A stretch of 39,373 nt of DNA from Peloplasma aerotolerans (GTDB lineage Bacteria; Bacillota_I; Bacilli_A; Acholeplasmatales; Acholeplasmataceae): contig NZ_JASCXW010000017.1 of NCBI RefSeq assembly GCF_030012175.1, forward strand, positions 1 through 39,373, given 5' to 3'. Positions 8,962-25,137 of this stretch are shown here, piece by piece. Position 1 is the stretch's first letter; every line of letters starts with the position of its first letter. The notes beneath the pieces are model-generated. The model made no database searches. It had not been told where the DNA came from and saw only the letters and a list, made by a program, of their open reading frames with translations. Position numbers and translations under genes: made by a program.

Positions 8962-8979
8962 AAAACACCTTTTAAAACT

Positions 8980-9023
8980 TATATCTAAGATATAGTTTGA
9001 TATTCATATCATACCATATCAAA
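8980..9023. promoter_or_regulatory. Two dyads in the flavodoxin operon promoter region
   Basis: TATATCTAAGATATA (8980-8994) is an odd-length perfect palindrome. Next to it, TTTGATAT (8996-9003) and ATATCAAA (9016-9023) form an inverted repeat with a 12-bp spacer. Both lie 19-62 bp upstream of the flavodoxin ATG, where the promoter should be, and are good operator candidates. Confidence 0.4.
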
Positions 9024-9054
9024 TAAGTGTCGTAAAGGTGCAATGATAAAATCT

Positions 9055-10822: not shown

Positions 10823-10857
10823 ACAACAGCTCGAAATTGAGCAGTTGTCTTTTTATT
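10823..10857 (+). terminator. Intrinsic terminator after cpsD
   Basis: ACAACAGCTC (10823-10832) pairs with GAGCAGTTGT (10839-10848) apart from one A-A mismatch, with a 6-nt loop and then CTTTTTATTT. It also lies at the end of the converging minus-strand hydrolase gene. Confidence 0.75.
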
Positions 10858-11644
10858 TAAAGCTTCGAATAGTCACAAGTATAGCATGTGCAGCATTTTC
10901 CCAATTTGGATCAATCGTTAGAAAATGACATAAATCATTCAAGATGATTGGTGCTACATTAAAAGCACTTGCAGTCTTCATAATCTTAGACTCATCAATA
11001 ATCATATCATCTTTAGAACCAATCACACCTATGGGTATCGTAATCCTTGTATAATCATCAATAAAAGGCTCTAAGAGGTCTTTTTTTACTAAAGACGACT
11101 CTTTGGTCAAACGTTTTCTAATTTCACTTAATTCGGTCGGATTCATGCGGTTGCTAAAAATCGTTTGGTTTAATAAGTGATCTAAAGTTATTTTCTCATT
11201 TGGATTTTCTTTTTTCAATTTCCTAAGGAAATCCCTTGTGTCATTAAAAAATAAACCTAAATGAGAATCTTTATCAATACCACCAGCTTCTGCTGATGAT
11301 AATAGGATAGCAGCATGAATTTCATCTTGGTAATCAGAAATAAAACGTTGCGTGATTGCTCCACCCATTGAATGTCCGATTAAAATAGGTTTCTTCTTTA
11401 AAATACTAACAACAGATTTAACATCACTGACATAATCATCAAGACGGTAAGTATCAATATCTTCATAACCTTCACTTTTTCCATGACCTCTTAAGCTCAA
11501 CGCATAACAGTCATATCCATGATTAGAAAAATATGATAAAAAGTGCTTGAAATACCAAGCACCACCTGCAGCTCCATGAATAAATAATAATGGAGGTTGA
11601 TTCGTTTTTTTCTTTGCTAGTTTCCTTAAGACTTCTAGTTTCAT
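10853..11644 (-). CDS. Alpha/beta hydrolase
   Basis: Predicted serine hydrolase (esterase or lipase-like). FIHGAAGGAWYF (residues 21-32) gives the oxyanion HG motif, LIGHSMGG carries the nucleophile S92, GSKDD (209-213) provides the acidic residue, and H240 in LCHFL is the likely catalytic histidine. A variable cap occupies about 125-195. There is no signal peptide, so it is cytoplasmic. The substrate cannot be inferred. AAGGTGA precedes the ATG. It is the last gene of the minus-strand run that starts near 15.8 kb, 51 nt after the GNAT gene. Confidence 0.82.
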   Translation of the reverse strand: MKLEVLRKLAKKKTNQPPLLFIHGAAGGAWYFKHFLSYFSNHGYDCYALSLRGHGKSEGYEDIDTYRLDDYVSDVKSVVSILKKKPILIGHSMGGAITQRFISDYQDEIHAAILLSSAEAGGIDKDSHLGLFFNDTRDFLRKLKKENPNEKITLDHLLNQTIFSNRMNPTELSEIRKRLTKESSLVKKDLLEPFIDDYTRITIPIGVIGSKDDMIIDESKIMKTASAFNVAPIILNDLCHFLTIDPNWENAAHAILVTIRSFK

Positions 11645-11695
11645 GAAATCACCTTATCTACATTTTACCATAAAAAACGTTTATTCGATGTGTAC

Positions 11696-12163
11696 CTAGA
11701 GCACAATCTCATAAACGTTTAGTTTTTGTTTACCAATGACATAAAAGATATGATCTTTGGGAACATCTTGTTCAAAGGCTATTAATGTACCACCAGATCT
11801 TGAAATCGTTCGGATTGACTTATTATTATTGCTTTCGCTTGTTATGAGGAGCATGCGATATCCATGCTCTCTAGCGATATCTTTAATCATTTCAAGAGCA
11901 TAGTAGCTATAATGATGTCCTTGATAATCTAGTTGAATTTCATATCCGATATGACCATGGACCATTGTTTCTTCGTTATATCCTAAGCGAAGCGTGATGG
12001 TTCCAATGGATTGCTTACCGCAAGTGATTTGAAACATGTAATAGGGTAGTGCATCTTTTTCCTTAGGAAAAAAACTAATCAGTTTTAAATCAACGACTGG
12101 ACCATAGATAAAGTCTTTCTTTAGCAGTTGATGATGTATTAAGCAATCATATTTACTTCTCAT
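11696..12163 (-). CDS. GNAT-family N-acetyltransferase
   Basis: Acetyl-CoA-dependent acyltransferase of unknown substrate. The GNAT core is seen as GTITLRLGY (beta 4), HIGYEIQLDYQGHHYSYYA (motif A, with a diverged Q-x-x-G/A pyrophosphate loop), and LLITSESNNNKSIRTISRSGG (motif B region, where neighbours of the acceptor bind). At 155 aa it is a single domain. The start overlaps the stop of the GNAT gene upstream (ATGA), so the two acetyltransferases are translated together. It belongs to the RimJ-like side of the family by its SNNNKS motif. Confidence 0.72.
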   Translation of the reverse strand: MRSKYDCLIHHQLLKKDFIYGPVVDLKLISFFPKEKDALPYYMFQITCGKQSIGTITLRLGYNEETMVHGHIGYEIQLDYQGHHYSYYALEMIKDIAREHGYRMLLITSESNNNKSIRTISRSGGTLIAFEQDVPKDHIFYVIGKQKLNVYEIVL

Positions 12164-12696
12164 AACTTCTTACTCAAAATTAAGTCGTGTTTACCCCTAC
12201 CATTTGCATCTGGCATAATACCTATCAATTGGTATCCATGTTTCATATAAAAGCGTGCTGGATGATTTTTTGGATCAAAATGTTTCATTTTGTCATAAAT
12301 ATCATCATATCCATCAGCATCTCTTAAACTTGATCTTCGATCATCTGACTCATCATCTGATGCAGCATAAATGGTCAATCCACCTAAAAATCGTGCTTTA
12401 TCTTCTAAATACTTGATTAATAAACCACCAAAACCTTTGTTTTGATATTTTGAATCAATGACCATTGGGTGTATTTCGTAAACGTTTCCGCTATAGCAAG
12501 GTAAAATACCACCCCAACCAATGAGTTGTCCAGAATCGATTAAAGCGTAAAAATAACCATCAGCCTCTAATTGCTCTGATATTTCATTTTGTGCATCTTC
12601 TACCTTATTCCAGCCGATTGGTAACTCTTTATTTAATAATAACGCACATTGATATAATTGTTTTTTACTCAAATCTCTTAAATCATGAAATTCCAT
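12160..12696 (-). CDS. GNAT-family N-acetyltransferase
   Basis: Single-domain acetyltransferase (178 aa). Motif A is clear: IHPMVIDSKYQNKGFGGLLIKYLEDKA, with the acetyl-CoA pyrophosphate loop Q-N-K-G-F-G. Earlier GWGGILPCY gives the central strand, and HPARFYMKHGYQLIGIMPDANG is the C-terminal alpha4-beta7 region. This last part, with KNHPARFY, resembles acetyltransferases annotated as acting on small molecules. An AGGAGA site precedes the ATG. The gene is 12 nt after the zinc-ribbon protein and overlaps the following GNAT gene by 4 bp. Confidence 0.82.
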   Translation of the reverse strand: MEFHDLRDLSKKQLYQCALLLNKELPIGWNKVEDAQNEISEQLEADGYFYALIDSGQLIGWGGILPCYSGNVYEIHPMVIDSKYQNKGFGGLLIKYLEDKARFLGGLTIYAASDDESDDRRSSLRDADGYDDIYDKMKHFDPKNHPARFYMKHGYQLIGIMPDANGRGKHDLILSKKL

Positions 12697-12708
12697 GGGA
12701 TTCTCCTT

Positions 12709-13206
12709 TTATATTCTAAATTGAATACCACAATGATTACAAAGCTTAGAACTAACTTGATTAAGTTCTTTACATTCTGGGCATTTTTTAAACATTGCAC
12801 ATCCACAATTATCACAATACATCGCATCAGGAAACATTTCCTTACCACATTGTGGACAGGTTTTTGATGGCAATGGTGTGTTTTTGAGTTGTTCAAAAAA
12901 CGCACCAGTTGAATCTTTTGATTTATTTAATATATCGCTTTTAATCGAATTATGAGCAACAAACTCATCATCACTTATTTGATACTTTTTAGTTTTTTTA
13001 ATATAACCAAATAACAACATCATCAATCCAAGTAAAAGGATTAGACCACCTATATAAGTTAAGTATATGATATTAGAGGAATCTGATGCAAAAAAATCGA
13101 TCATTGCAATCAACATGATGAAACATCCAATAACAATGAGTGCGACACCACTTTTTTTAAATCTATTTTTTATTTTTGCTAGGTCTTTTAAGTCATAATC
13201 CTTCAT
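12709..13206 (-). CDS. Two-helix membrane protein with double zinc ribbon
   Basis: Function unknown. Two membrane helices lie at about residues 18-39 and 47-68. A linker leads to two four-cysteine zinc ribbons at the C-terminus: CPQC...CDNC and CPEC...CNHC, both in the cytoplasm if the N-terminus is inside. Tandem zinc ribbons of this type are common in Firmicute membrane proteins and usually mediate protein contacts rather than catalysis. AGGTGGGG lies 7 nt before the ATG. The gene sits between a membrane protein and a GNAT in the same run. A shorter overlapping reading frame at 12678-12905 is a shadow of this gene. Confidence 0.78.
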   Translation of the reverse strand: MKDYDLKDLAKIKNRFKKSGVALIVIGCFIMLIAMIDFFASDSSNIIYLTYIGGLILLLGLMMLLFGYIKKTKKYQISDDEFVAHNSIKSDILNKSKDSTGAFFEQLKNTPLPSKTCPQCGKEMFPDAMYCDNCGCAMFKKCPECKELNQVSSKLCNHCGIQFRI

Positions 13207-13227
13207 CTAAAACCCCACCTATATTTC

Positions 13228-13809
13228 TTATTCCTTTGTATCCTTGAAATATACTTCACTTTCAAGATAACGATAAAACAATTTTTTTCTAATCCGTGAT
13301 TCATGACTTGTAAAAAAGAATACAGTAAATGCTTCCCACAATAGAAACCAACCACCAATAAATAAACCTTCTACCATAATCGAAAACAATAATTCAAATT
13401 GATCAACATTACGTAAAGTATAAGCTCCAATTAAAAACATAATACTTAATGTCATGTAAGTTAGCAATTGTCTATAATTAATTCTAAGAGTTTTTTGGAT
13501 AAAGAAAATAACAACTTTAAAATTGTTTTTTATGCCGGTAATGCTTTTTGATTCTTTATCATCATCTTTAATGGATAAAGGACGATAAAAACACAACTCT
13601 ACAGATTCTTTTAATGGAATCTCGGTTGCTGCTTGTTCTAAGTAATCAATAAGCTCAGGCTCTAAGTCCTTTCTTCTTAATGGAGAGGCATCCCATCCAT
13701 TAAATAGTTCAGAATAGTCGTCTAACGAGACTTCAATCACATACGCACCTGTTTCAGGATTTTTATTATAAATATTTTGAAACTCATGTTTTTTCTTTTT
13801 ATTAAACAT
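13228..13809 (-). CDS. Hypothetical two-helix membrane protein
   Basis: I do not recognise the family. The first ~85 residues are soluble, with a segment VSLDDYSELFNGWDASPLRR followed by EPELIDYLEQAA and ELCFYRP. Two hydrophobic segments lie at about 115-135 and 143-167 (counted from this start), and a basic cytoplasmic tail follows. The start is the ATG at 13809, 5 nt after the GGTGA of AGGTGA; the GTG nine bases upstream is part of that ribosome site. It follows a GNAT gene by 9 nt and precedes the zinc-ribbon membrane protein by 21 nt, so the two membrane proteins may act together (inference). Confidence 0.7.
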   Translation of the reverse strand: MFNKKKKHEFQNIYNKNPETGAYVIEVSLDDYSELFNGWDASPLRRKDLEPELIDYLEQAATEIPLKESVELCFYRPLSIKDDDKESKSITGIKNNFKVVIFFIQKTLRINYRQLLTYMTLSIMFLIGAYTLRNVDQFELLFSIMVEGLFIGGWFLLWEAFTVFFFTSHESRIRKKLFYRYLESEVYFKDTKE

Positions 13810-13818
13810 GTATATCAC

Positions 13819-14364
13819 CTACTTTTCTATAACAAACGTTAAAGCATCATACTTTTGACCATAAATGATTCTAAAGTCTTTAAACCGATTAATTTCATAA
13901 AAACCTATTTTTATTGCTGTATGAATCATAGGTGTATTTCCAGACCATGTCTGCAAATACACTTTTTGATATCCATGTGACCAAACAAGATCTAAATATA
14001 ATTGGATTGCCTTGCTTCCAAAACCAAGATTTCTATATTTAACTTCAGGAATAACTAAGCCTATAGCAACATGTTTTCCTTCTACATCATATTCGAAGTT
14101 ATCATTCATAAGATAATGACTTACCCATCCAATATGAGTTATTCCATCCAAATATATTTCCATTCTTGGTTGCAATTGATACATATTTCTTGTTTCAATT
14201 TGTTTTAACTTATTGGCTTTATATTGATTTGCATCAAAAGGATCATCTTTTTCCCATGGTGCATCCCAATCCATCCATTCAATTTCTTTTGTAAACCAGT
14301 AAATGGCATCTTCAACATCTCTTTCATTAAAAAGACGAAGTTCTATGTTATGTTCATTATTCAT
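13819..14364 (-). CDS. GNAT-family N-acetyltransferase (RimJ/RimL-like)
   Basis: Acetyltransferase of unknown substrate. IELRLFNERDVEDAIYWF opens the domain as in RimJ/RimL and aminoglycoside 6'-acetyltransferase relatives. VAIGLVIPEVKYRNLGFGSKAIQLYLD is motif A with the R-N-L-G-F-G loop, and LQTWSGNTPMIHTAIKIGF is the Asn-containing motif B. The region EWMDWDAPW is shared with small-molecule acetyltransferases of this branch. Two adjacent ATGs are possible (14367 and 14364); the second has better spacing from AGGTGA. The gene overlaps the stop of the squalene-cyclase-like gene, so translation is coupled. Confidence 0.82.
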   Translation of the reverse strand: MNNEHNIELRLFNERDVEDAIYWFTKEIEWMDWDAPWEKDDPFDANQYKANKLKQIETRNMYQLQPRMEIYLDGITHIGWVSHYLMNDNFEYDVEGKHVAIGLVIPEVKYRNLGFGSKAIQLYLDLVWSHGYQKVYLQTWSGNTPMIHTAIKIGFYEINRFKDFRIIYGQKYDALTFVIEK

Positions 14365-15296
14365 CATTCACCTTTTAATTCGTTATGGATACATGTTTGA
14401 TAAACATCAGGTCTATAGTGTTTTAAAACCTTTAAGGCTCTTAAAGTATTAAAGCGACCATAGGTTGTCATTTCAAGTTGAAAGTGGATTAAACCGGGAA
14501 TTTGAGTACCTCTTTTTAAACGTCCATCCTTTATGTTGTTTAGCAAAATTGTCATCACTTGATTAAGACGTTGATCATATGGATACTTCATATCTGCTAA
14601 GAGTTCAAGTACTCTTAAATAATCATATTTCCATCTTGGAGGATAATGATATTTAACCATACTTGGATGCAATGGTTGTTTTGATTTTTTGTTTAGAATA
14701 ACATCTCTAGATAATAAACACTCTATACCTTGTTGTATAGCTTTTTTAACATCTTCTAAACGATAAGTATAATTATTTTTAACAAATTCATGTAAGCCTT
14801 CTAAAACAGATATGGTTGTATGAACTGAACTGATTTTAGGATTTCTTCCACTATCCCACTGGCAGTTCCATCCACCATCATCAAACTGATGATCTAATAT
14901 GTAGTCCATCATTCTAGGGTTTCTTTGTTCATGGATGTTTGCGTAAGTAACTAATTGAATGAGCATACCAACAATGCACATATCTTGCTGTCTTTGACCT
15001 TTTTTTGGTTTCTCATCAATCCATAAATGATCAACTAAATTTTTAACTGCTTCATGATAAACATTGTGCATTGGATCAATTTCCATATACTTAAGTTCCA
15101 ATAAAGTGTAATGCGTAGAAATCCATTTTGGAGAATAGATACCATGCCCCCATCTTTTACTTTCAGAATCATATAAATGAATATATTTTTGTATATATCC
15201 ATCATCAATATATTTAACATCTTGATCAAGCAAATACTTATTGACAAGTCTTGCAATAACAGGGTCTCCCTGTTTTAGCCATGTTAATACGTTCAT
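14364..15296 (-). CDS. Squalene-cyclase/prenyltransferase-like toroid protein
   Basis: All-helical alpha/alpha toroid protein of the prenyltransferase and squalene-oxidase-repeat superfamily. The clearest repeat is QFDDGGWNCQWDSG (about residues 137-150), similar to QW repeats of terpene cyclases, and helical pairs fill the rest. At 310 aa it is half the length of squalene-hopene cyclase, lacks the DxDD protonation motif and has no membrane segment, so it is probably not a hopanoid cyclase. Similar stand-alone proteins occur in Bacilli beside acetyltransferases, with unknown function. AAAGGAT precedes the ATG. It lies between two GNAT genes, 4 nt after one and overlapping the other. Confidence 0.7.
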   Translation of the reverse strand: MNVLTWLKQGDPVIARLVNKYLLDQDVKYIDDGYIQKYIHLYDSESKRWGHGIYSPKWISTHYTLLELKYMEIDPMHNVYHEAVKNLVDHLWIDEKPKKGQRQQDMCIVGMLIQLVTYANIHEQRNPRMMDYILDHQFDDGGWNCQWDSGRNPKISSVHTTISVLEGLHEFVKNNYTYRLEDVKKAIQQGIECLLSRDVILNKKSKQPLHPSMVKYHYPPRWKYDYLRVLELLADMKYPYDQRLNQVMTILLNNIKDGRLKRGTQIPGLIHFQLEMTTYGRFNTLRALKVLKHYRPDVYQTCIHNELKGE

Positions 15297-15300
15297 TGTT

Positions 15301-15837
15301 TTATCCTTTACTTAATATTTCCACACATTTTTGATTCAACTGTTCTAAATCAAATATAAAAACATCCACTTCTAGCTTTCCATCAATTTGTAAATCCTTC
15401 TTAAATATTTTACCACCTAAGTAGAGATAATATTGATTTGAAGGTGCATAATGGTGATTATAGACAACTAAAGATGTCTTTTTAAGTGGTAAGTAAATAT
15501 CAATCAAGTGTTTGAGTAATAATATTGATAGTTTTTTTCCTCGATGATTTGGGTATACCCATAAACCATTGAGCTCAAATGCATCTTTTCCATCTTCTTC
15601 TTCAGCAAAACTAGCAAAAGCTACACCGAGCATTTCGTTATGCTCAAATGCGCCAATTAAGGTTCTAACATCGTTGTTTTCTTTAGCATGATGCATCCAA
15701 TGAACCCAAAAAGAAAGTTCTTCTTCAAAAATGAGTTGATGTTCTAACTTTCCTGCAAGTTCTTCTTGCCATGAAGATATTTTTAAACGAACAACCTCTG
15801 GCATGTCTTTTTCTGTCAAGTTTCTTATTTCTATCAT
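15301..15837 (-). CDS. GNAT-family N-acetyltransferase
   Basis: Single-domain acetyltransferase (178 aa). EIRNLTEKDMPEVVRLKISSW opens as in ordinary GNATs, ELNGLWVYPNHRGKKLSILLLKHLIDI is motif A with R-G-K-K-L-S in the pyrophosphate loop, and NQYYLYLGGKIFKKD is the C-terminal region. The substrate is unknown. GGAGAAG precedes the ATG. It is the first gene of the second minus-strand run. A TATAAT element lies about 30 nt upstream, and a terminator for the preceding gene lies just beyond that. Confidence 0.8.
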   Translation of the reverse strand: MIEIRNLTEKDMPEVVRLKISSWQEELAGKLEHQLIFEEELSFWVHWMHHAKENNDVRTLIGAFEHNEMLGVAFASFAEEEDGKDAFELNGLWVYPNHRGKKLSILLLKHLIDIYLPLKKTSLVVYNHHYAPSNQYYLYLGGKIFKKDLQIDGKLEVDVFIFDLEQLNQKCVEILSKG

Positions 15838-15867
15838 AAGTCTTCTCCGCTAATATGTTCTTATTTC

Positions 15868-15873
15868 ATTATA
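15868..15873 (-). promoter_or_regulatory. -10 element of the second array transcript
   Basis: TATAAT on the minus strand (plus strand ATTATA), preceded by TTG, 31 nt upstream of the GNAT ATG at 15837. The -35 region is poor and T-rich. Confidence 0.4.
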
Positions 15874-15891
15874 CAAAAAAAAAGAGTAAAT

Positions 15892-15916
15892 AAAAACACC
15901 CCAAACGAGTGTTTTT
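15892..15916 (-). terminator. Intrinsic terminator after the 65-residue membrane protein gene
   Basis: On the minus strand AAAAACAC pairs with GTGTTTTT (extendable by two pairs with one G-U), and T-rich sequence follows. It separates the small membrane gene from the GNAT run. Confidence 0.65.
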
Positions 15917-15928
15917 ATGTTTTTCAAA

Positions 15929-16126
15929 CTAAAATCCCCATATTGCGAGTGCAATGATTGCAATCACGATAAAGATACCAAATGCAATCACTAGATTTTT
16001 TACAGTCTGACTACTTCCTTTTCTAATGAATATCCATAATATAAACGCTAAATTTACAAACGGAACAGCCATTAACCCAATAATCAACATCCATTCAAGT
16101 ACTGTTACACGATCACTTTTAAACAT
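15929..16126 (-). CDS. Small two-helix membrane protein
   Basis: Protein of 65 residues with two hydrophobic segments (about 10-33 and 44-64) joined by a short basic loop RKGSSQTVK. There is no recognisable catalytic motif; similar short proteins are widespread and uncharacterised. AGGTA lies upstream of the ATG. A TATAAT (minus strand, 16160-16165) lies 34 nt before the start and a terminator follows directly, so it is probably a separate single-gene transcript inserted between two longer runs. Confidence 0.65.
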   Translation of the reverse strand: MFKSDRVTVLEWMLIIGLMAVPFVNLAFILWIFIRKGSSQTVKNLVIAFGIFIVIAIIALAIWGF

Positions 16127-16159
16127 AAAATACCTACTTTACTTTCATTTATTGTCTCT

Positions 16160-16165
16160 ATTATA
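16160..16165 (-). promoter_or_regulatory. -10 element of the small membrane protein gene
   Basis: TATAAT on the minus strand (plus strand ATTATA), preceded by TTG as at 15868-15873. The 72-nt gap it lies in is the largest inside the array. Confidence 0.4.
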
Positions 16166-16198
16166 CAAGACTTGAATAAATAAAATGTGAATAAAGCA

Positions 16199-16726
16199 CT
16201 ATTCTTTATGTTTCTTTTTTGCAAATCCCATCCGACACATCGACCAATGAAATGATGATTGTTGAATTTGATGCATGATGTCAAACAACTCATCAACTGC
16301 ATGAAATTCAATCTCAAAAGCTTCAAGGGCTTTTCGAAGATTAGTTATTTGATAAGATGCAATAGGCACTTCTATATGTTTGCTAACATAATATCCGGCA
16401 ACTTCATCTTGTAAAACAAAGTTTTTAGGATCAAATTCATAGATGGTTAATGTTGTTTGATCGATTTGTTCTAGCCAATCTTTTTCAACGTAGATAGCGT
16501 GTTGACTTTTTTTATTTTGAAAATACTGATTGATATCTTCTTGTTTCGTATCTTTAGATACATGAAAAGTAACTCTTGGACAATTTCTTGGTGTCAAAAA
16601 GTTAGGTAAAGTTCTTTCGCATAATGCCCATACCAATCCTTCTTCACTCGTTAAGTCTTTTCGGTATGGCTTTCTTGGATGAAATATTTGAATGTTATGA
16701 TCTTCACTCACATGAAATAAACGCAT
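16199..16726 (-). CDS. DUF6886-like protein
   Basis: Protein of 175 residues beginning MRLFHVSEDHNIQIFHPR, with EGLVWALCERTLPNFLTPRNCPRV following. This pattern I associate with the Bacillus DUF6886 family of unknown function. The His/Arg-rich start and a pocket-like beta architecture recall RES/ART-type NAD-related folds, but that is only a resemblance. There is no signal peptide. AAGGAGT lies before the ATG, and the gene starts 8 nt after the nitroreductase stop as the last member of the 12-gene run. Confidence 0.6.
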   Translation of the reverse strand: MRLFHVSEDHNIQIFHPRKPYRKDLTSEEGLVWALCERTLPNFLTPRNCPRVTFHVSKDTKQEDINQYFQNKKSQHAIYVEKDWLEQIDQTTLTIYEFDPKNFVLQDEVAGYYVSKHIEVPIASYQITNLRKALEAFEIEFHAVDELFDIMHQIQQSSFHWSMCRMGFAKKKHKE

Positions 16727-16734
16727 AGTACTCC

Positions 16735-17256
16735 TTAATCGATATAAGTGACTATTTTTTCAATATCTTTTCTAAGTTTTTGTCTAGCTTCTTTTTCATC
16801 TGTATAACCTAAACTAACAATCAAACGAACTCTTTTCTTTTTAGGAATATCAAGTACTTGTTTCACTTTAGACTCATCAAACCATCCAATGATACAATTT
16901 GAAATACCTAGAGAAGTTGCTGCTAAAGCTATATAAGACGTTACAATTCCAACATCCATTTGCGTATAATCTTGATGTTTAATCTTACTACCTATCGTTG
17001 ATGTTATATTTGATTTTTCTTCAATAACGACAATAAAACCACCAGCTTTTGCATTAAATGCTTGCATATGTGATGCGACATTTTTCATAACTTCTTGATT
17101 TGTGATTGCTATAAAATGCCATGGTTGTCCATTGCATGCTGAAGGAGCAAGTCTTGCTGCTTCAATGATTGCTTCAACATCACTTTTTGAAACAGGTTTC
17201 CCATTAAACTTACGACAACTTTCTCTTTTTAAAATGAGTTCTTTGAAATTTTTCAT
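16735..17256 (-). CDS. Nitroreductase-family flavoprotein
   Basis: FMN-dependent NAD(P)H oxidoreductase. ILKRESCRKFNGKPVS gives the FMN-phosphate arginines/serine (the R-x-S-x-R pattern reads R11-E-S-C-R15). AARLAPSACNGQPWHFIAI is the family dimer/FMN motif, and GISNCIIGWF and LIVSLGYTDE are the C-terminal strand and loop. At 173 aa it is a short, B-type nitroreductase. The natural substrate is unknown; roles in reducing quinones, nitro compounds or halogenated compounds are known in the family. AGGAGG precedes the ATG and the gene is 8 nt after the SRPBCC gene. Confidence 0.85.
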   Translation of the reverse strand: MKNFKELILKRESCRKFNGKPVSKSDVEAIIEAARLAPSACNGQPWHFIAITNQEVMKNVASHMQAFNAKAGGFIVVIEEKSNITSTIGSKIKHQDYTQMDVGIVTSYIALAATSLGISNCIIGWFDESKVKQVLDIPKKKRVRLIVSLGYTDEKEARQKLRKDIEKIVTYID

Positions 17257-17264
17257 AAGCCCTC

Positions 17265-17723
17265 CTAGACTTTTGTCATGCGGTCAAATACATATCCCCA
17301 AGATTGATCAAAATAATCATATGCTTCATCCCAAAGTTTACCTTCTGGCCAACCTAAATGAATCAATTCAACAAGTGTTTGCTTATCATCTATCTTTTTA
17401 AATGTCAAAACGACCCATGTCTTATACTCATGATTTCTAACAGTCTCCATATTTGGAGGTGCATTCCAAGTAAATGATAACATCTCATTTGGGATAAACG
17501 ATAATACCTGACACCCCTCACTACCCTTTAATCCTTTTTCTGCATCTGGCAAAAAATACAGCTCATAAGCACCAAATGGTCTTAATTCAATTTTAGAATC
17601 AATGCCTAAAAGTCTTTGAAGCCCCTCAGGTGTTGACCATAAATGCCAAACATATTCGATTTCTCGATTCACAAATATTGACTTAATCAAGCGCTTATCC
17701 GTTACTTTTAATTTTTCCATCAT
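17265..17723 (-). CDS. SRPBCC (AHSA1-type START) domain protein
   Basis: Single START-like domain of 152 residues: IKSIFVNREIEYVWHLWSTPEGLQRLLG is the typical opening of activator-of-Hsp90-like SRPBCC proteins, LSFTWNAPP the central strand, and a long C-terminal helix with W-D-x-S-W-G-Y-V-F-D-R-M follows. Such proteins bind hydrophobic ligands in a deep cavity; no catalytic residue can be assigned. AGGAGG lies upstream of two consecutive ATGs, the second better spaced. It sits between a GNAT and a nitroreductase, in keeping with small-molecule handling. Confidence 0.82.
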   Translation of the reverse strand: MMEKLKVTDKRLIKSIFVNREIEYVWHLWSTPEGLQRLLGIDSKIELRPFGAYELYFLPDAEKGLKGSEGCQVLSFIPNEMLSFTWNAPPNMETVRNHEYKTWVVLTFKKIDDKQTLVELIHLGWPEGKLWDEAYDYFDQSWGYVFDRMTKV

Positions 17724-17729
17724 AGCCTC

Positions 17730-18155
17730 CTATTTATTTTTCCATACAAATAAAATATCTTGGTCATCACGTGGTGTTACTTGGGTTGCTCCTGCCTTAC
17801 GATAAAGATTCATTGCTGCATCATTGGTATGATTTGTAATAACAAAAGCATCCCGATAATAACCAGTTTCTAAAGGTTTCAATATATGTTCTAATAGTTT
17901 TGTTGCGACATGTTTTTTTCGGTAATCCTTTAATACGTCAATGGAATAAATAAACAATTGTTTTTCTTTTCCATCTGGTCGATCAAACTCATATCCATAG
18001 ACCATACCAATAACCATTGTCTCATCTAATGCAACATACATAACATTATTTGGTAAATCTAAAAAATCCTGATTAAACGTTTTTTTATCAAAAAATAACT
18101 CAATACTTTGTCTACCATATTCTAGATTCTCTTTTGTAACTTTAACGATTTTCAT
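17730..18155 (-). CDS. GNAT-family N-acetyltransferase, AAC(3)-I-like
   Basis: Acetyltransferase of 141 residues. The layout with an early Phe-rich helix, VMYVALDETMVIGMVYGYEFDRPDGKEKQ, then YSIDVLKDYRKKHVATKLLEHI (motif A with R-K-K-H-V-A) and NDAAMNLYRKAGA near the end resembles the AAC(3)-I/fortimicin acetyltransferase branch. Actual aminoglycoside activity cannot be told from the sequence. AAGGAGT precedes the ATG, which follows the metallopeptidase stop by 1 nt. Confidence 0.78.
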   Translation of the reverse strand: MKIVKVTKENLEYGRQSIELFFDKKTFNQDFLDLPNNVMYVALDETMVIGMVYGYEFDRPDGKEKQLFIYSIDVLKDYRKKHVATKLLEHILKPLETGYYRDAFVITNHTNDAAMNLYRKAGATQVTPRDDQDILFVWKNK

Positions 18156-18156
18156 G

Positions 18157-19236
18157 TCATACTCCTTTGGTTGTGATGTATTGACAACTTATAACAGTCA
18201 AATCATCATCTATTTCGACAACACCTGTATTGAAGATAAACTCTTGTTTTCCTTCAGGATTAATGAGCGCAAAAAATCCAGGACAATAAATATAATATTT
18301 ATAAGCTCTTGCATTGTATGGATCAACACCTAATAACTTATATTTTCCTTCATGCTTTGCATTACATTTTTTTAAGGTTTCTTCAATCAGTATCTTGTTT
18401 TCATTTTCAAATTGAATCACCATCTTTTCAATATCAGAATCAACATTTAATGTCTTTGATTCTGATAAAATCAAATAACGATTAAAAAGTATCTCACTTA
18501 ACGTTAGTGTAGTACTCGATAAATCGTGATGCCAATCCATTTCATTTTCTTTACATAAGATAGCGATCAATCCACCTATATCATAACATATTAGACGAAT
18601 TGGAAAATAGTTTTCTTCATTTAAAATTTTGTCTTTTAATACACTTAAAGTTTTTAAATATTTAGTTTGATCAAGCATCTTTAAAGCCATTAACTCAACA
18701 TAAGTCGCAAAGCCTTCAATCACTTCCGTTTTTGCTTCATAGTCAAATTGAGAGGGAAATTGTTGTTGTCTAGATTTTCTGGTTCTCAAAAAATCTTTAA
18801 ACAACTCCATATCAAACTGATCTAGACACGTAAATAACATTTCATTTTCTTGTTTTTTTATAGATAGATTAACTGCATCATATTGATAAGTCAATAAAGA
18901 TTTCACTTCATGTGGCCATCTTTGTTCACCTTGTTCAAATTGATATGCATGAAACATTTCATGAACTATTTTAGATAGGAGTACTGTAGAATCTTTTTCA
19001 TATTTTTCTATGTCTTTTGGGTTGATATACCAAATTGCTAAAAAGGTATTTTGATACTTAATCGCAGTATTACCATAAAATCTTTCATCTTTTTGGATAA
19101 CTTCATCTTTTAGAAAGACTTCATTATCGTTATATAAAGCAAAATCAAAGACATGAAATCCTTTCCAGATGTTATTAAAATCGATAAGATTTAGTTGTTT
19201 TTGAAGTTGCTGATATAGTTTTCTGATAACATTCAC
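18157..19236 (-). CDS. Predicted zinc metallopeptidase (HExxH, gluzincin-like)
   Basis: Protein of 359 residues with the zinc motif HEMFH at 92-96 (KIVHEMFHAYQFEQ) and a second helix EVIEGFATYVEL in which E174 is a plausible third zinc ligand, giving a gluzincin-type site. There is no signal peptide or membrane helix, so it appears cytoplasmic. The C-terminal half has beta structure (CPGFFALINPEGKQEF) of unknown role. The only reasonable start is GTG at 19236, 2 nt after the TAG of the YcaQ-like gene. I do not recognise a named family, and the substrate is unknown. Confidence 0.7.
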   Translation of the reverse strand: MNVIRKLYQQLQKQLNLIDFNNIWKGFHVFDFALYNDNEVFLKDEVIQKDERFYGNTAIKYQNTFLAIWYINPKDIEKYEKDSTVLLSKIVHEMFHAYQFEQGEQRWPHEVKSLLTYQYDAVNLSIKKQENEMLFTCLDQFDMELFKDFLRTRKSRQQQFPSQFDYEAKTEVIEGFATYVELMALKMLDQTKYLKTLSVLKDKILNEENYFPIRLICYDIGGLIAILCKENEMDWHHDLSSTTLTLSEILFNRYLILSESKTLNVDSDIEKMVIQFENENKILIEETLKKCNAKHEGKYKLLGVDPYNARAYKYYIYCPGFFALINPEGKQEFIFNTGVVEIDDDLTVISCQYITTKGV

Positions 19237-19238
19237 CT

Positions 19239-20426
19239 CTACTTTAATAAGTTTGTTTGTATATCAATTGTATGACAATCATTAAATGTCATAAAACGAT
19301 CGAGACAATTGAGTATATTATTTTTGAGCGTCTTCGTTAACTTAATATGATCTTCAAACCAAATATTTTTAACAAGTAATGTTTTTTCTTTCTTTTGATT
19401 GATCACTTCAATGCGTCCTATAAATTCTGTATTTGAGATAATAGGAAGTACATAATAACCATAAACCCTGTCTTCTTCTTTATTGTATATCTCCCATTTA
19501 TATCGAAAATCAAAAATGGTTTCGGTTAATTTTCTATCCCATATAAAGCCATCTAGTGGAGCAATCAATTCTGTTCTGCCTTCAAATGTTTTTCCACTGA
19601 TGATATCTAATAGAATCTGTTCATCTGAATTTAGAGCATAAAAGAGTTCATTAATGCCTTCAATTTCAATTTCTACAATCTTATCTTCTTTTAACAAAGA
19701 TTGATAAACTTCAGTTCTTTCTTTTGCTCTTAAGCCATGGATAAACAAATAAGCTTCGGTTGGTCTATTCCATAATAGGCCAATTGCTGAAATTCTTCTT
19801 AAAACACGATATTTATAAAATTCCAAATCAGTTTGAAAAGGATCATCTGCTTCATAATCTTCTTTTGGGATATAATCTCTTGCTAATGCATAATACTTAA
19901 TCGTATTTTTTTTATGGTGAACAATTAGTTCACCATGGAAATACATCAATTCGATTGCTGCTTTAGCAATCGATGTTTTATTCCAGTTCCATTCCACTTT
20001 TTGATCATTTGCAAAATCTTTTGAACATACATATCCTTTTTCTTCAATCTTTTTCTTTATCTCTTCCTTCATTTCAGCTAGATGAGGATGGTTTTCTTCT
20101 GTTTCATCATAACGATCTCTAACCCTTTTAAAGTACTTCCAATCATCAATAGATAAGATAGACATCACCTTATCATAATAATCCATAAGCTTTCGATCTT
20201 TATATAATAAATCATATAACATCTCTTTTTTAAAACCTTTAACACGAGATTGCAAAACAAGCTCTGCATTTTTACCACAAACATCAATAGGATCGTATTG
20301 AATGCACCCTACTTCTTTAATGTAATCTAGTGCTCCTTTTTTACCTACATATTTATAATGACCCATGAGGCCTTGCTTTATTAAAATAAACTTTCTAGTC
20401 TGTTCATTGCTTAAATTATATTTCAT
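19239..20426 (-). CDS. YcaQ/AlkZ-type winged-helix DNA glycosylase
   Basis: Predicted HTH_42 (AlkZ/YcaQ superfamily) DNA glycosylase, a family that excises bulky alkyl adducts or unhooks interstrand crosslinks. The N-terminal winged helix is followed by GCIQYDPIDVCGKNAE, where Q43-Y-D45 fits the catalytic QxD motif of the YcaQ branch (AlkZ has QxQ). YDKVMSILSIDDWKYF and HPHLAEM continue the family pattern, and LIAPLDGFIWDRKLTETIFDF is the conserved C-terminal beta-barrel region with the PLD motif. The length of 395 aa is normal. AAAGGATGAT precedes the ATG. YcaQ-type enzymes can protect against azinomycin-like or mustard agents; here the agent is unknown. Confidence 0.83.
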   Translation of the reverse strand: MKYNLSNEQTRKFILIKQGLMGHYKYVGKKGALDYIKEVGCIQYDPIDVCGKNAELVLQSRVKGFKKEMLYDLLYKDRKLMDYYDKVMSILSIDDWKYFKRVRDRYDETEENHPHLAEMKEEIKKKIEEKGYVCSKDFANDQKVEWNWNKTSIAKAAIELMYFHGELIVHHKKNTIKYYALARDYIPKEDYEADDPFQTDLEFYKYRVLRRISAIGLLWNRPTEAYLFIHGLRAKERTEVYQSLLKEDKIVEIEIEGINELFYALNSDEQILLDIISGKTFEGRTELIAPLDGFIWDRKLTETIFDFRYKWEIYNKEEDRVYGYYVLPIISNTEFIGRIEVINQKKEKTLLVKNIWFEDHIKLTKTLKNNILNCLDRFMTFNDCHTIDIQTNLLK

Positions 20427-20437
20427 CTAATCATCCT

Positions 20438-20896
20438 TTATAATGGTTTGACTAACAGTAAGCATGGTGAATCTTTACCCCAAAGCTCTTTAAATGTTTC
20501 AACAGGAATAAACCCTACTGATAAGTAAAAGTCTCTTGTCATCTTATAATAAGGGTCTGGGTGAGATGCATCTAACGTTTTGACTTCAAGGAGTTTGTAA
20601 TGTTTGGCCTTTGCGTATCTAGATGCATAATCTACTAATAACTGACCAATGCCTTTTCTGTGATGTTCTTTTAGAATGCCCATGACATGAATTTCAATCG
20701 TTGATTCATGATGAGGATTAAGTGATAGAAAACCAATGGGTTGTTCATTCTCATAATAAGCGAACATCAGCATATCTTTAACATCATTAATATATTCTAA
20801 ATTCGACTCAGGACGTCCGAACCAATTTGGTAATGCTTCAATGATATGTTTCGTAACATTTTGTTTTAAAGTGGGTTCAAATATTTCTTTAATCAC
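20438..20896 (-). CDS. GNAT-family N-acetyltransferase
   Basis: Single-domain GNAT of 152 residues. PIGFLSLNPHHESTIEIHVMGILKEHHRKGIGQLLVDYASRYA holds beta 4, beta 5 and motif A with the classical R-K-G-I-G pyrophosphate loop; DPYYKMTRDFYLSVGFIPVE is the C-terminal part. It resembles the streptothricin/phosphinothricin-like small-molecule branch by the YxxTRDFYxxxGF segment. The start is GTG at 20896, 8 nt after AAGGAG, and lies inside the end of the DUF998-like gene (8-bp overlap). Confidence 0.82.
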   Translation of the reverse strand: MIKEIFEPTLKQNVTKHIIEALPNWFGRPESNLEYINDVKDMLMFAYYENEQPIGFLSLNPHHESTIEIHVMGILKEHHRKGIGQLLVDYASRYAKAKHYKLLEVKTLDASHPDPYYKMTRDFYLSVGFIPVETFKELWGKDSPCLLLVKPL

Positions 20897-21488
20897 TTAT
20901 TATCTCCTTTAAATCATATTTGATTTTAAACTTAATAAAAACATCAATTAAGTATAGAAATGAAATGATGAACATGAATCTTTGAAAAAGTCCACGTAGT
21001 GGTTCAATCGAAAAGATCAGTATCGACAATAGCGTTGATATCAGGACCATGAGTATCGATAGCTGCTTTCTTTTCATACTTTCTTCGATAAAAAACATAC
21101 TCATCGAAAAAACCACAAAAGTAAACCCTACAACCGTTGCGAAAATTGAATGAAGCTGATCTTCAATATTATGTGTAATATAAGATACAACATAAACATG
21201 CTCATGTTTAAAAATGGCAGTTAAAATTAAAGCACCTCCAAATATGATTAATAAAACTTGCTGAACAGGATAATCTTTAAATGATTTTCTTGAATCAAGA
21301 ATAGTAGCAGCACCTAATAATATAAAAACCATATTCATAATCCAAGCATTAGGAGTTAATTGAGCTCCTAAGTGACTTGTTGTATGTTTCAAGATGCTAT
21401 ATCCTTCAAAACTAAAAAAAGGTAAAACAAACATAACAACAATCAATAATGGGTAAATATAGATTAATAACGGTTTATAAGCTTTCAT
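20889..21488 (-). CDS. DUF998-like six-helix membrane protein
   Basis: Integral membrane protein of 199 residues with about six hydrophobic segments. The motif TSHLGAQLTPNAWIMN after the first helix and the layout of the others match DUF998 (Frag1/DRAM-like) proteins, whose function is not established. GGAAG lies 8 nt before the ATG, inside the end of the P-loop kinase gene (14-bp overlap), so translation is coupled on both sides. Confidence 0.78.
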   Translation of the reverse strand: MKAYKPLLIYIYPLLIVVMFVLPFFSFEGYSILKHTTSHLGAQLTPNAWIMNMVFILLGAATILDSRKSFKDYPVQQVLLIIFGGALILTAIFKHEHVYVVSYITHNIEDQLHSIFATVVGFTFVVFSMSMFFIEESMKRKQLSILMVLISTLLSILIFSIEPLRGLFQRFMFIISFLYLIDVFIKFKIKYDLKEIISD

Positions 21489-22029
21489 GATTTAACTTCC
21501 AATCTTTTGTTGATGATATGATGTGTTTTCTTAATAAGTATTGATTAAGACGTCTTCTATTATTAAATATCAAGACTTTATTCGGATAATTATTTTTTAA
21601 AGATTTATATAAGTTTTTTCGTTTTATAGATCTACCTTTATAGATTAACCAAATAAAGAACTCCCAATCAATCTTTTCTGGACAGTTGTTGGTTATGCTT
21701 TCTCTTGACTTGTTTCGATAAATAAATCTTCTTTTAATAGCATTTAGTAAACATGTCATACGATGATAGTTTAAGATATAAATTTGATCAGCTAATGATA
21801 CTCTTAAATCAAAGAAAGCACCTTGATAATTGCCATCGATGACCCATTGCTCATGTGTATTGATAAAATCTAATAAATCTTGATTTCTATCTTCTACCTT
21901 CCGTTGGACCCAATTGGCTTCAAACTGTAAGGTATCGATATAAAGTAAAGGTAGAGCTTCATGTTTTGCTAAAAGTTTTGCTAGTGTTGACTTACCTGAA
22001 CCAGAATAACCAATGACCATAATCCTCAT
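21475..22029 (-). CDS. P-loop nucleotide kinase (FlaR/topology-modulation-like)
   Basis: Small P-loop kinase of 184 residues. Walker A GYSGSGKST lies at residues 7-15, LPLLYIDTLQFEANW follows like the substrate region of FlaR-type proteins, and WVIDGNYQGAFFDLRVSLADQIYIL carries the WVIDGNY motif and Walker B-like strand. RRRFIYRNKSRE-type basic residues form the lid. Homologues are annotated as DNA topology modulation proteins, but the real substrate is unknown. GAGGTGA precedes the ATG. Confidence 0.82.
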   Translation of the reverse strand: MRIMVIGYSGSGKSTLAKLLAKHEALPLLYIDTLQFEANWVQRKVEDRNQDLLDFINTHEQWVIDGNYQGAFFDLRVSLADQIYILNYHRMTCLLNAIKRRFIYRNKSRESITNNCPEKIDWEFFIWLIYKGRSIKRKNLYKSLKNNYPNKVLIFNNRRRLNQYLLRKHIISSTKDWKLNHESL

Positions 22030-22074
22030 CGTGTCACCTCAAACGTATTATAAATAATAAATAGACCAAACCAA

Positions 22075-22980
22075 TCATTTAAAACTAGATTGCTGATACC
22101 AAGAGGGTATAGATTGCCTAAAGTTATCAAAATGAATCATTGTCTTTCTACAAATATCCATCATAACATGAACTTCATCTATACCAAATGGTTCAGCCCA
22201 TTTGATAGAGTATAATGCTGAATGTGCACAATATATAACAAATATTTCCCAAAAGTCATTGGGTATATGATCATTGAAATATGCTTCAATTTGACCGATA
22301 CAAAAAGGAATGCTAACTTTTGTGCCAAAACTTTCCAACTTATAAAACTCTTCATAGGGGTCACCAATTTCCCAACGATTGAAATCAATCACACCAATAT
22401 TTTGATCAGGTGTTAAAATCAAGTTTCCTGGATGGAAATCTCCATGCAAATAAACAGGAGGTTTTGTCCATATTTGGTCAATATGATCCTTAAGAAACTT
22501 TAAAGCTATTTCATCACCATCAATTCTTAGTTGTGAAGTTTCGTATAACTCAATCTGTTTTTTCTTCTTAGGAATTTTTGTTGTTTGTGGTATTTCATCA
22601 TCAGGAAGAGGAATACTATGGATAGCTTTTAAAATGGCACCTGCTTGACGACCAAGTGCATACTGCTTACTGATATCAAGCTTGGGTAATACATCATCAA
22701 GGTCTTGACCTTCTACCCAAGTTAGTAACATATAGACTTCTTGATGGTTATTAAACCATCCAAAATCAAGAGCTTTTGACATATGAATATCTAGTTTTGA
22801 GAACTTGGCAATCATCTCAAACTCTTTTTTCTTCTTATCAAAAGCTTCTTTCGCTGAAGTTCTTAACAATAGCTTTTCACCGTTGATTGTCTCAATATAA
22901 TACTTTGTATCTCTTGACCATCCACGCTCGATTTTTTTGATTCGTTGCCATGTTTCATGGCCTTTGATATCTTCAAACAT
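22075..22980 (-). CDS. Aminoglycoside phosphotransferase (APH) family kinase
   Basis: Small-molecule kinase with a protein-kinase-like fold. VYLHGDFHPGNLIL contains the catalytic loop (D181, N186), and GVIDFNRWEIGDP holds the Mg-binding D199. The N-lobe includes LLLRTSAKEAFDKKKKEFE with the ATP lysine region. At 301 aa the length fits APH(3')/homoserine-kinase-like enzymes, and the loop sequence resembles putative antibiotic kinases of Firmicutes. The substrate is unknown. TGGAGG precedes the ATG. It follows the DUF3307 gene by 12 nt. Confidence 0.83.
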   Translation of the reverse strand: MFEDIKGHETWQRIKKIERGWSRDTKYYIETINGEKLLLRTSAKEAFDKKKKEFEMIAKFSKLDIHMSKALDFGWFNNHQEVYMLLTWVEGQDLDDVLPKLDISKQYALGRQAGAILKAIHSIPLPDDEIPQTTKIPKKKKQIELYETSQLRIDGDEIALKFLKDHIDQIWTKPPVYLHGDFHPGNLILTPDQNIGVIDFNRWEIGDPYEEFYKLESFGTKVSIPFCIGQIEAYFNDHIPNDFWEIFVIYCAHSALYSIKWAEPFGIDEVHVMMDICRKTMIHFDNFRQSIPSWYQQSSFK

Positions 22981-22992
22981 GATGCCTCCAAA

Positions 22993-23787
22993 TTAGATAT
23001 TTTGAAATAAAACGAAGATAAAATAATAAGTAAAAATAGTATATAGAATGCTAAACATGGTTCCTATAATAAAATACTCACCAAACTTTGTGACTTCTAA
23101 GGTTTTAAATCTAGCAATTGATTTTGCTGCTAGGATTAATCCAATCGTCATATAACTACCGACAATGAGTGAAATCATTAAAAGAATTCTTTCAAGAATA
23201 CCAATCGTTCGGCCAGCTTTCTGGTTTGAACTAAACACATGAAATCCATGTTCCTTGGCTTCATCAACATCTTCTTGAGATGGCTTATACTTTCCTAATA
23301 GCTCTTTAAAAAACACATTGCCAGTTTTTCCTATGAGTAAGAATGCTAAAACATATTGTAAGACTGAAAAATAAGTACTATCTGTTAAAAAATAATTTCC
23401 TAAGTTGGTTAAAGTAAAATTGAAGATAATATAAAGACCTAATAATATCAAAATAACAACATGCAATAATTGATCGATGAAGAAGAGATAAGGCCTTTTG
23501 TCTTCATTTGTTTTTTGATAAAGTTTAACTTTAATCAAATCAATCACGCCATGACTTAATCCTGCAATTAAAAAGATAATGATATCGAGCCATTGGTTAG
23601 GTATATAGACTAAAAATATTAAAAATGTACAAATGATGTAAATCAAGGTATGTTTAAAGAGCCTACTTTTAAATATAGTCTTTATTGATAAAACTTCTGC
23701 TAATTTTTCATCAGAAGCTTTTTCTGATTGAAAGTAAAAATCAACTAAGACATGAATAATTAGTAGAAAAAACATTAAAAACATCAT
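22993..23787 (-). CDS. DUF3307 membrane protein (SatD partner)
   Basis: Membrane protein of 264 residues with about seven hydrophobic segments. The start LLIIHVLVDFYFQSEKASDEK matches the DUF3307 signature (H-x-x-x-D-F-x-x-Q), and HVFSSNQKAGRTIGILERIL is a conserved cytosolic loop. In many Firmicutes this family is encoded next to SatD; its function is not settled. The ATG overlaps the satD stop (ATGA) with GGGAGGG upstream, so the two are co-translated. Confidence 0.8.
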   Translation of the reverse strand: MMFLMFFLLIIHVLVDFYFQSEKASDEKLAEVLSIKTIFKSRLFKHTLIYIICTFLIFLVYIPNQWLDIIIFLIAGLSHGVIDLIKVKLYQKTNEDKRPYLFFIDQLLHVVILILLGLYIIFNFTLTNLGNYFLTDSTYFSVLQYVLAFLLIGKTGNVFFKELLGKYKPSQEDVDEAKEHGFHVFSSNQKAGRTIGILERILLMISLIVGSYMTIGLILAAKSIARFKTLEVTKFGEYFIIGTMFSILYTIFTYYFIFVLFQNI

Positions 23788-24455
23788 GATCCCTCCCTAT
23801 TTTTAATAAATAAGCTTAATGCTTCTATCATCTCAACATATTCATAAAACTTAGTTCTCTTAAGTTTTTCATTAACTGTGGGTGGTGCTTCATCTAAAAG
23901 TTTAGCAAGATCGACTTGTTTAAAGTGACGCGTCAAGCCATAATGATGAATAATCATTTCAATCATTTTTAGTTGCGTACCTGTCCATCCACTTTTAATG
24001 ATATAGAGTAAATCAAAGACTTTATTGATCATCAAATCAAAAGCTGCGTTATTTGTTTTCATCATGATATTAGAAAAATCGGTAACTTTTTGTTTTTCTT
24101 CAAGTTCTTTGATTGCCTTAATGGCATCTCTTGCAAACCACCATGCCTCGCCATCGCTATCATAAGGTGATGCATCCTTGGATTCATCGAATAAGATATC
24201 ACCGATGCCTAGGCCAAATCTAATCTCAACAGGTTCTAGGTTAAACATAATTTTGTGCATAATTTCAAAGATATCATCAAACGTACGAAAAACACCTTGG
24301 AATTCATCACCCAATGTGATATACATTTTCTTGACTAATGTATCTTGGTATTCTTCATTAATCCTATTTAAGATATCTCTTAGTCTATGTTGTACTTCGA
24401 TTCGATTTTGAATCGTTTTAGACTTTTTCAAGTCACCGATTAACGTATAATACAT
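23784..24455 (-). CDS. satD: SatD-family protein
   Basis: SatD-like protein of 223 residues. MYYTLIGDLKKSKTIQNR is the family start, MYITLGDEFQGVF the core motif, and EIRFGLGIGDI follows; these strands resemble a nucleotidyl-cyclase-like fold that is probably not catalytic (inference). The C-terminal ~60 residues (HYGLTRHFKQVDLAKLLDEAPPTVNEKLKR) form a winged-helix-like DNA-binding region, so it may regulate its own operon. SatD was first noted in Streptococcus mutans acid tolerance loci. GAGGTGG precedes the ATG, and it is the first gene of a 12-gene run. Confidence 0.82.
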   Translation of the reverse strand: MYYTLIGDLKKSKTIQNRIEVQHRLRDILNRINEEYQDTLVKKMYITLGDEFQGVFRTFDDIFEIMHKIMFNLEPVEIRFGLGIGDILFDESKDASPYDSDGEAWWFARDAIKAIKELEEKQKVTDFSNIMMKTNNAAFDLMINKVFDLLYIIKSGWTGTQLKMIEMIIHHYGLTRHFKQVDLAKLLDEAPPTVNEKLKRTKFYEYVEMIEALSLFIKNREGS

Positions 24456-24475: not shown

Positions 24476-24503
24476 ATTATATAATAAAAATGTTCGCTTG
24501 TAA
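24476..24503 (-). promoter_or_regulatory. Promoter of the satD-led operon
   Basis: On the minus strand TTACAA (24503-24498) and TATAAT (24481-24476) are separated by 16 bp, 20 nt before the satD ATG. This is a good match for a sigma-A promoter at the head of the long array. Confidence 0.55.
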
Positions 24504-24518
24504 ATACGAATTTAAATT

Positions 24519-24586: not shown

Positions 24587-25117
24587 CTAATAAGTCAAAA
24601 ATATAGTCGAATAGACGAAGACTACAACTTCTCCAATCAAACGATTAGAAAATTTAGTCACTTTAGTATGTTCAAATATTGGATGATCAATTAAGTTCAT
24701 TAAATCATCTTTATTGGCTTTATAATTTGATATATAAATATTCTTTTTAAACCCTTTTGTTACAATCATTAAATAATCAGTAGACCCCGTTAAATCTTTT
24801 TGAATCGAATATAATAATTTTTTAACGTCACGAATAGGTACTTCGCACTTCTTTTCTTTACGTTCAATCCATAGACTTTGATCTATAATTTTAAAAGTAT
24901 AGTGTCTTGAATGCGCCAAATTGACTAAATAATTTATAAAGGCAAGCATTAATAAATAACCTACAAATAACATCTCAATTAATGTAATCGACATTTGTTG
25001 GTTAACGATTGAACTAATCATCATAACACTTAAAATAAGCATAACGATTATCGGTATGGATGTAGTGATTAATATACTTTTATATTCTTTATAATTCTCA
25101 TTGACGACTTCGATCAT
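24587..25117 (-). CDS. Two-helix membrane protein of unknown function
   Basis: Protein of 176 residues from this start. Two hydrophobic segments lie at about residues 16-36 and 43-66, and a beta-rich soluble domain follows (YTFKIIDQSLWIERKEKKCE, then DYLMIVTKG) with the look of a small PH-like membrane domain, as in YcxB/YdbT-like proteins. That resemblance is tentative. I chose the ATG at 25117 because an AAAGAG lies 7 nt upstream; the longer TTG start at 25141 has no ribosome site and would overlap the rlmD-like gene. It follows that gene by about 20 nt and may be co-transcribed. Confidence 0.6.
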   Translation of the reverse strand: MIEVVNENYKEYKSILITTSIPIIVMLILSVMMISSIVNQQMSITLIEMLFVGYLLMLAFINYLVNLAHSRHYTFKIIDQSLWIERKEKKCEVPIRDVKKLLYSIQKDLTGSTDYLMIVTKGFKKNIYISNYKANKDDLMNLIDHPIFEHTKVTKFSNRLIGEVVVFVYSTIFLTY

Positions 25118-25137
25118 AAATATGCTCTTTTCTGTGT

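Follow-up and report, generated by a model that had tools for sequence, protein, structure and literature searches.

Chromosomal integron cassette arrays hold small accessory genes, often of GNAT type, in one orientation, and operons are said, after Price, Arkin and Alm in 2006, to grow by new genes joining existing co-directional operons. Naturally transformable species are reported to have more hotspots of horizontal transfer, of which fewer carry mobility genes, and to recombine more at the core genes on either side (Oliveira et al. 2017, PMC5635113). Here, we analyzed the window, a stretch of 39,373 nucleotides that is an entire contig (NZ_JASCXW010000017.1, or C9, one of 88 contigs of the 2.04-Mb genome G000) of Peloplasma aerotolerans, together with related genomes, which are Acholeplasmataceae metagenome-assembled genomes. 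Twenty genes lie in it on the minus strand from 10853 to 24455, as the original prediction had described, and a conserved 65-amino acid (aa) open reading frame (ORF) that it had overlooked brings this array to 21 ORFs. We consider it highly probable that the array, which conserved frame genes bound on both sides, is a hotspot of chromosomal gene turnover in an uncultured Acholeplasmataceae genus. Gene-exchange hotspots of this type are ordinary, although the one-direction layout here is unusually tidy. The closest known kind are the horizontal-transfer hotspots lacking mobile elements (Oliveira et al. 2017, PMC5635113), which the array resembles in its core-gene bounds, its turnover-dominated diversity and the association with transformable bacteria; as to mobility genes, the comparison covers tyrosine recombinases, none of which was found in a recovered array. 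Unlike those hotspots, which were defined within species, the array is seen across species of one genus, and its cargo is operon-like, nearly all in one orientation and mixed with scaffold genes that persist. Frame and scaffold in the window are as follows.

25138 to 26514, minus strand, frame gene rumA for an RNA uracil methyltransferase of that type, at the upstream array edge, in 15 congeners
14364 to 15296, minus strand, scaffold gene g14, 310 aa, no Pfam family, predicted alpha/alpha-toroid fold
13228 to 13818, minus strand, scaffold gene g16, 196-aa transmembrane protein, no Pfam family
11696 to 12163, minus strand, scaffold gene g19, GNAT acetyltransferase, in 11 of 11 complete arrays
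10853 to 11644, minus strand, scaffold gene g20, alpha/beta hydrolase by Pfam
6165 to 9786, minus strand, far frame beyond the array, with genes for an OmpR-type regulator, a flavodoxin, an FMN-binding protein and a CapD-type polysaccharide protein

Anchoring on rumA gave whole or partial array regions for 15 congeners besides G000; four of the 20 genus genomes (G003, G012, G015 and G018, in which the match is truncated) had no usable rumA region. The short broken stretch in G004 was excluded from the family matrix, which covers 15 genomes, G000 among them; the arrays of four (G017, G010, G001 and G009) are partial. Turnover figures refer to the 11 complete arrays with families clustered by BLAST, by which fast-evolving orthologs may be split, a possible example being a slot in which G011 and G013 each have a 259-aa protein, with 28% identity between the two. 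The array interval is bounded by conserved genes in the genus, rumA on one side and OmpR/flavodoxin/capD on the other, and in G033, from another genus, the rumA-type gene occurs together with the far frame genes. Between these bounds, G014 has all 21 ORFs in identical order with 59–93% identity to G000, and it is the only one of the 10 other complete arrays in which the gene set is conserved; the others contain 5 to 17 genes each and retain 2 to 7 of the 21 window families (seven in G005, six in G011, three in G002). Altogether, the 11 complete arrays comprise 63 families, of which one is present in all 11, four in at least nine and 37 in a single lineage. The turnover component (beta_SIM 0.80) against a nestedness component (beta_NES) of 0.05 documents replacement rather than nested loss, and looser clustering changed this little (58 families, 30 single-lineage, beta_SIM 0.78, beta_NES 0.05). 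These values count against an ancient large operon that eroded differently in each species by loss only, as does the number of single-lineage families, which would demand an ancestor of ~60 genes. Such an operon would account for the seven genes (g3, g10, g13, g14, g15, g16 and g19) whose order G005 shares with G000, yet gene order varies between groups (g16 precedes g14 in G011, G013 and G006), and the AlkZ-like glycosylase gene has its nearest relatives outside G000 and G014 in other families of the class (51% identity, compared with at most 34% in congeners except G014). We therefore regard loss alone as very improbable.

The turnover hotspot, by comparison, is also supported by how close relatives differ. 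Over the 15 genomes, the most retained genes are g19 and g16 (12 genomes each), g14 (11), a YhhN gene that is not in the window (10) and g20 (9). Close species pairs differ by one or two genes at once. Specifically, G011 has a SatD-DUF3307 pair and YhhN that are missing from G013; G008 and G019 have 10 families in common, of 12 and 11, respectively, with an additional 261-aa gene at the rumA end in G008 and, in one shared slot, a small protein in each that is unrelated to that of the other; and G005 has an SRPBCC gene and a 186-aa gene that are not in the recovered part of G017. In the slot before g14, G000 and G014 carry a GNAT gene and G001, G008 and G019 an Fpg-like gene; the slot is empty in G002, which the rumA tree places as sister to G001. 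Because deep support in this tree is weak (5 of 15 inner branches starred), the gain and loss events are not polarised. The fixed frame, the few persistent genes and these one- or two-gene differences support the second of two options in the original prediction, that of a hotspot into which genes are gathered singly. Full conservation across the relatives would have contradicted it and is not what we found, though G014 conserves everything.

Small genes in one orientation, a GNAT-rich cargo and gene-by-gene differences are also what an integron-like or other site-specific cassette array would display. Unlike chromosomal integron arrays, this array has no integrase or attC-like sites and has overlapping genes and several transcription units. 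None of the 83 PF00589 (tyrosine recombinase) matches falls in any recovered array in a by-eye comparison with the array intervals, transposases and serine recombinases not having been searched separately, and an integron was rejected because no IntI-type tyrosine recombinase adjoins the array and neither gaps nor repeats revealed attC sites. A search of the gene junctions for cassette repeats returned only two-copy, chance-like matches, and the gaps of -14 to 45 nt with gene overlaps from 24455 to 16199 leave no space for attC sites of their usual size. We conclude that a site-specific cassette array is extremely unlikely. Rfam and tRNA scans of the window were empty, which argues against tRNA-anchored insertion.

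As to how genes would instead enter the turnover hotspot, ComEC is present in 20 of 20 genus genomes and a PilB/ComGA-type ATPase (T2SSE) scores above cut-off in 18 of 20, suggesting that these Acholeplasmataceae have type IV pili or are competent. PilB-type ATPases serve pili and secretion too, and their presence is therefore no proof of competence. Taken with the association between hotspots and transformability, these genes make transformation with homologous recombination the preferred and, in our analysis, likeliest route of exchange. Our working hypothesis is that genes are gained singly or in pairs, either when DNA taken up via transformation recombines with homologous frame or scaffold genes or, alternatively, by illegitimate insertion; only insertions that keep orientation and co-transcription intact would survive, and the imported genes would thereby be expressed from already present promoters. 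This would resemble the growth of operons noted above, in which new genes join co-directional operons, and would differ from it in being repeated at one locus with many unrelated genes. A more specific proposal, which we hold to be doubtful, is an integrase-free gene-capture array in which homology handles are provided by g14, g16, YhhN, g19, g20 and the short promoter/terminator units inside the array, such that transformation swaps single-gene slots between species and the genes are expressed at once in the existing operon. If scaffold genes are such recombination handles, the locus would illustrate how integron-less bacteria build comparable accessory arrays.

Several observations weigh against the hotspot and its proposed route. 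GC and GC3 are uniform over the array genes, and thus no array gene looks recently foreign. Between G000 and G014, whose rumA genes are 91% identical and whose synonymous distance is ~1, there is no gain or loss inside the array; turnover is thus slow there, and in that lineage the genes may be kept together as one unit. The comparison rests on one genome per species and is therefore one between species, with rates and strain-level exchange outside its reach, and 32 of the 57 Pfam families of the cargo tally lie outside the displayed rows. Moreover, scaffold-gene identities track rumA moderately (Spearman 0.47–0.78), which neither proves nor excludes recombination, and the transformation route is deduced rather than demonstrated. 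The genes common to G000 and G014 are under purifying selection: omega (NG86) between these genomes is 0.035–0.171 for 20 of 21 ORFs with dS of 0.68–1.31, near saturation, which marks the array as functional and old in this lineage. The zinc-ribbon membrane protein at 12709–13206 stands out from its neighbours by much faster evolution (omega 0.45, 59% identity).

The density of GNAT genes in the array exceeds chance. Six of the 26 PF00583 matches of the genome fall within 0.67% of it (binomial P 1.8e-8, for a region chosen post hoc and uncorrected for that choice). Among congeners, 87 cargo proteins were picked from 147 non-window array ORFs, with most scaffold genes and near-duplicates omitted and one scaffold GNAT retained, and 17 of these 87 match PF00583 (P 9.6e-16, given an assumed baseline of 1.25% at about one gene per kb; the genus total is 447 matches in 20 genomes of ~36.5 Mb). 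Tandem duplication was rejected as the source of the GNATs, the six being mutually at most 26% identical. Four other GNAT-holding stretches of the genome revealed no comparable arrays. Neighbour pairs are co-oriented in 160 of 162 cases within arrays versus 131 of 152 outside (Fisher P 1.2e-5), the outside set being a conservative baseline that takes in some array genes of the four partial loci (L069–L071 and L077), and the median intergenic gap is 11 nt in arrays versus 24 nt outside. Because the outside pairs are mostly co-oriented too, the same-strand run by itself is a weaker signal.

The described subdivision of the array, with twelve genes from 24455 to 16199 separated by at most 45 nt or overlapping and eight further genes from 15837 to 10853, could be reproduced. 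Two conserved elements are of interest in this context.

24476 to 24504, minus strand, promoter-like TTTACA-17-TATAAT, near-consensus, directly before SatD, kept in G014
15890 to 15918, minus strand, intrinsic terminator-like hairpin with T-run, followed by TATAAT at 15873–15868, kept in G014

In G000, G014, G001, G002, G008 and G019, the g14 operon is preceded by a terminator-like hairpin with a TATAAT or TATACT behind it that resembles a promoter. The folded hairpins have z-scores of -2.2 to -4.8, that of G001 being weak, as 7 of 200 shuffles fold as well. Since promoter-like matches are no commoner overall than in shuffles (100 found, 113.6 expected), the evidence lies in the conservation and not in the match itself. 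The layout is not universal, because G005 has a gap of only 35 nt at the internal hairpin/promoter position. The sequence suggests that the window array is divided into a unit of 12 genes, a small one for the 65-aa ORF and one of 8 genes rather than forming a single 20-gene operon; two or three transcription units are likely.

The remaining genes of the array and its rumA-side neighbour are, in the direction of transcription:

24587 to 25141, minus strand, u184, predicted membrane protein between rumA and array, also in G014 and G017
23784 to 24455, minus strand, SatD family, full-length in only 3 of 20 genus genomes (G000, G014, G011), always at the rumA end
22993 to 23787, minus strand, DUF3307 membrane protein by Pfam, travels with SatD
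22075 to 22980, minus strand, APH-type phosphotransferase (g3) by Pfam
21475 to 22029, minus strand, P-loop kinase resembling PRK07261 'DNA topology modulation' (187.5 bits, cut-off 224)
20889 to 21488, minus strand, DUF998 membrane protein by Pfam
20438 to 20896, minus strand, GNAT acetyltransferase by Pfam
19239 to 20426, minus strand, AlkZ-like (HTH_42) DNA glycosylase by Pfam, Q-Y-D motif
18157 to 19236, minus strand, 359-aa protein with HExxH motif (HEMFH), no Pfam family
17730 to 18155, minus strand, GNAT acetyltransferase by Pfam
17265 to 17723, minus strand, AHSA1/SRPBCC protein (g10), in the G005 array, missing at that place in its sister G017
16735 to 17256, minus strand, nitroreductase by Pfam
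16199 to 16726, minus strand, DUF6886 by Pfam
15929 to 16126, minus strand, 65-aa membrane ORF, 89% identical in G014, own TATAAT at 16165–16160
15301 to 15837, minus strand, GNAT acetyltransferase (g13), in the slot between internal promoter and g14
13819 to 14367, minus strand, GNAT acetyltransferase (g15), between g14 and g16 only in G000, G014 and G005
12709 to 13206, minus strand, double zinc ribbon membrane protein by Pfam, the fastest evolving
12160 to 12696, minus strand, GNAT acetyltransferase by Pfam

Pfam thus verified the six GNATs, the APH, nitroreductase, P-loop kinase, SRPBCC, glycosylase and hydrolase genes named beforehand; three array proteins (the 359-aa HExxH, the 310-aa and the 196-aa transmembrane protein) have no Pfam match. 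The broader statement that all the genes modify or bind small molecules or repair damage holds by family for 12 of 20 and fails for the other eight, which are membrane, zinc-ribbon, SatD, DUF6886 or unclassified proteins. The arrays of congeners carry, among others, HAD and histidine phosphatases, a nucleoside phosphorylase, Fpg-like glycosylases, HTH proteins, an immunity-like family, metallo-beta-lactamase-fold proteins and a GH2 hydrolase, and the cargo is a mixture of accessory functions (GNATs foremost, phosphotransferases, base-excision glycosylases and small membrane proteins) rather than one pathway.

This bears on the first option of the original prediction, a stress or detoxification operon for self-protection or xenobiotic resistance that was assembled and kept as a unit. 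The complete, ordered set in G014 with its low omega, the conserved promoter before SatD and a recurring chemistry (the frequent GNATs, and DNA glycosylases that come from two unrelated families depending on the species) would agree with it, whereas the eight misfits and the small share of the 21 families in complete arrays apart from G014 do not. As had been predicted, there is no biosynthetic core: no such Pfam match occurs among 30 + 10 scanned proteins, six more at 31472–39351 being judged by eye only. The APH-type protein is far under resistance cut-offs (40 bits versus 205) and is thus no named resistance enzyme. The YcaQ-like glycosylase group reads Q-aliphatic-D and is reported as without association to biosynthetic clusters, and the AlkZ-like self-resistance group reads (Q/H)-aliphatic-Q (PMC9040887). 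The array glycosylase, of the same Pfam family, lacks the (Q/H)-x-Q motif and shares Q-x-D with the YcaQ-like group, differing by its Tyr as middle residue and lying outside any biosynthetic cluster; it is therefore nearer the YcaQ/AlkX type than the self-resistance group, in line with its earlier naming as YcaQ-type. Finally, PADLOC, run on 10 of the 21 array proteins, gave no defence match except weak P-loop ones. We consequently think a detoxification operon rather unlikely. An anti-phage defence island was rejected on the same PADLOC result for these 10 proteins. Phage carriage was likewise rejected: the HExxH protein, which is patchy in the class (29 of 395 genomes), had no match in a phage collection, and plasmid matches, among those listed, are distant for the glycosylase (at most 27%) and the APH (at most 46%).

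Searches of solved structures with the HExxH and APH proteins gave nothing useful. The g14 model (pLDDT 85.5) is an alpha/alpha toroid resembling terpene cyclases/prenyltransferases and complement C3d at TM ~0.4–0.5, and the g16 predicted fold (pLDDT 74.6) had no structural match with E < 0.37. The g16 membrane family occurs at 56 loci (L068–L123) in Acholeplasmataceae, Izemoplasma, Halanaerobium, Haloplasma and other Bacillota, in unrelated gene contexts. For SatD/DUF3307, the literature titles listed contained only unrelated uses of those letters, and we found no earlier printed description of the locus in the literature searched, which is no proof of absence. The locus is tidy and useful as a model, with low to moderate surprise: the turnover is well resolved, no tyrosine recombinases are present, the lineage is near wall-less bacteria, and the simple slot structure allows gene-by-gene gain and loss to be followed. 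So far, nothing about the locus is out of the ordinary as a source of genes for resistance or detoxification.

In four arrays, the gene for a small HTH_3-type protein overlaps that for a 452–476-aa, apparently multi-spanning protein, which in L055 has no Pfam match, and the pair looks like a two-gene module moving together.

L055:7276-8918, HTH_3 and large-protein module
L056:8686-10315, HTH_3 and large-protein module
L054:6777-8397, HTH_3 and large-protein module
L057:1965-3519, HTH_3 and large-protein module

On the flank, the window holds a sugar-uptake and hydrolase cluster at 28273–39351 (ABC transporter parts, two related large proteins and a GntR-type regulator, read by eye) that has no clear counterpart beside manA in G014, whereas the adjoining array is fully kept; the array is thus better conserved than its flank. 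In G007, the array end is separated from the manA-like and OmpR genes by a 1943-aa ORF on the opposite strand (L054:11055-16886).

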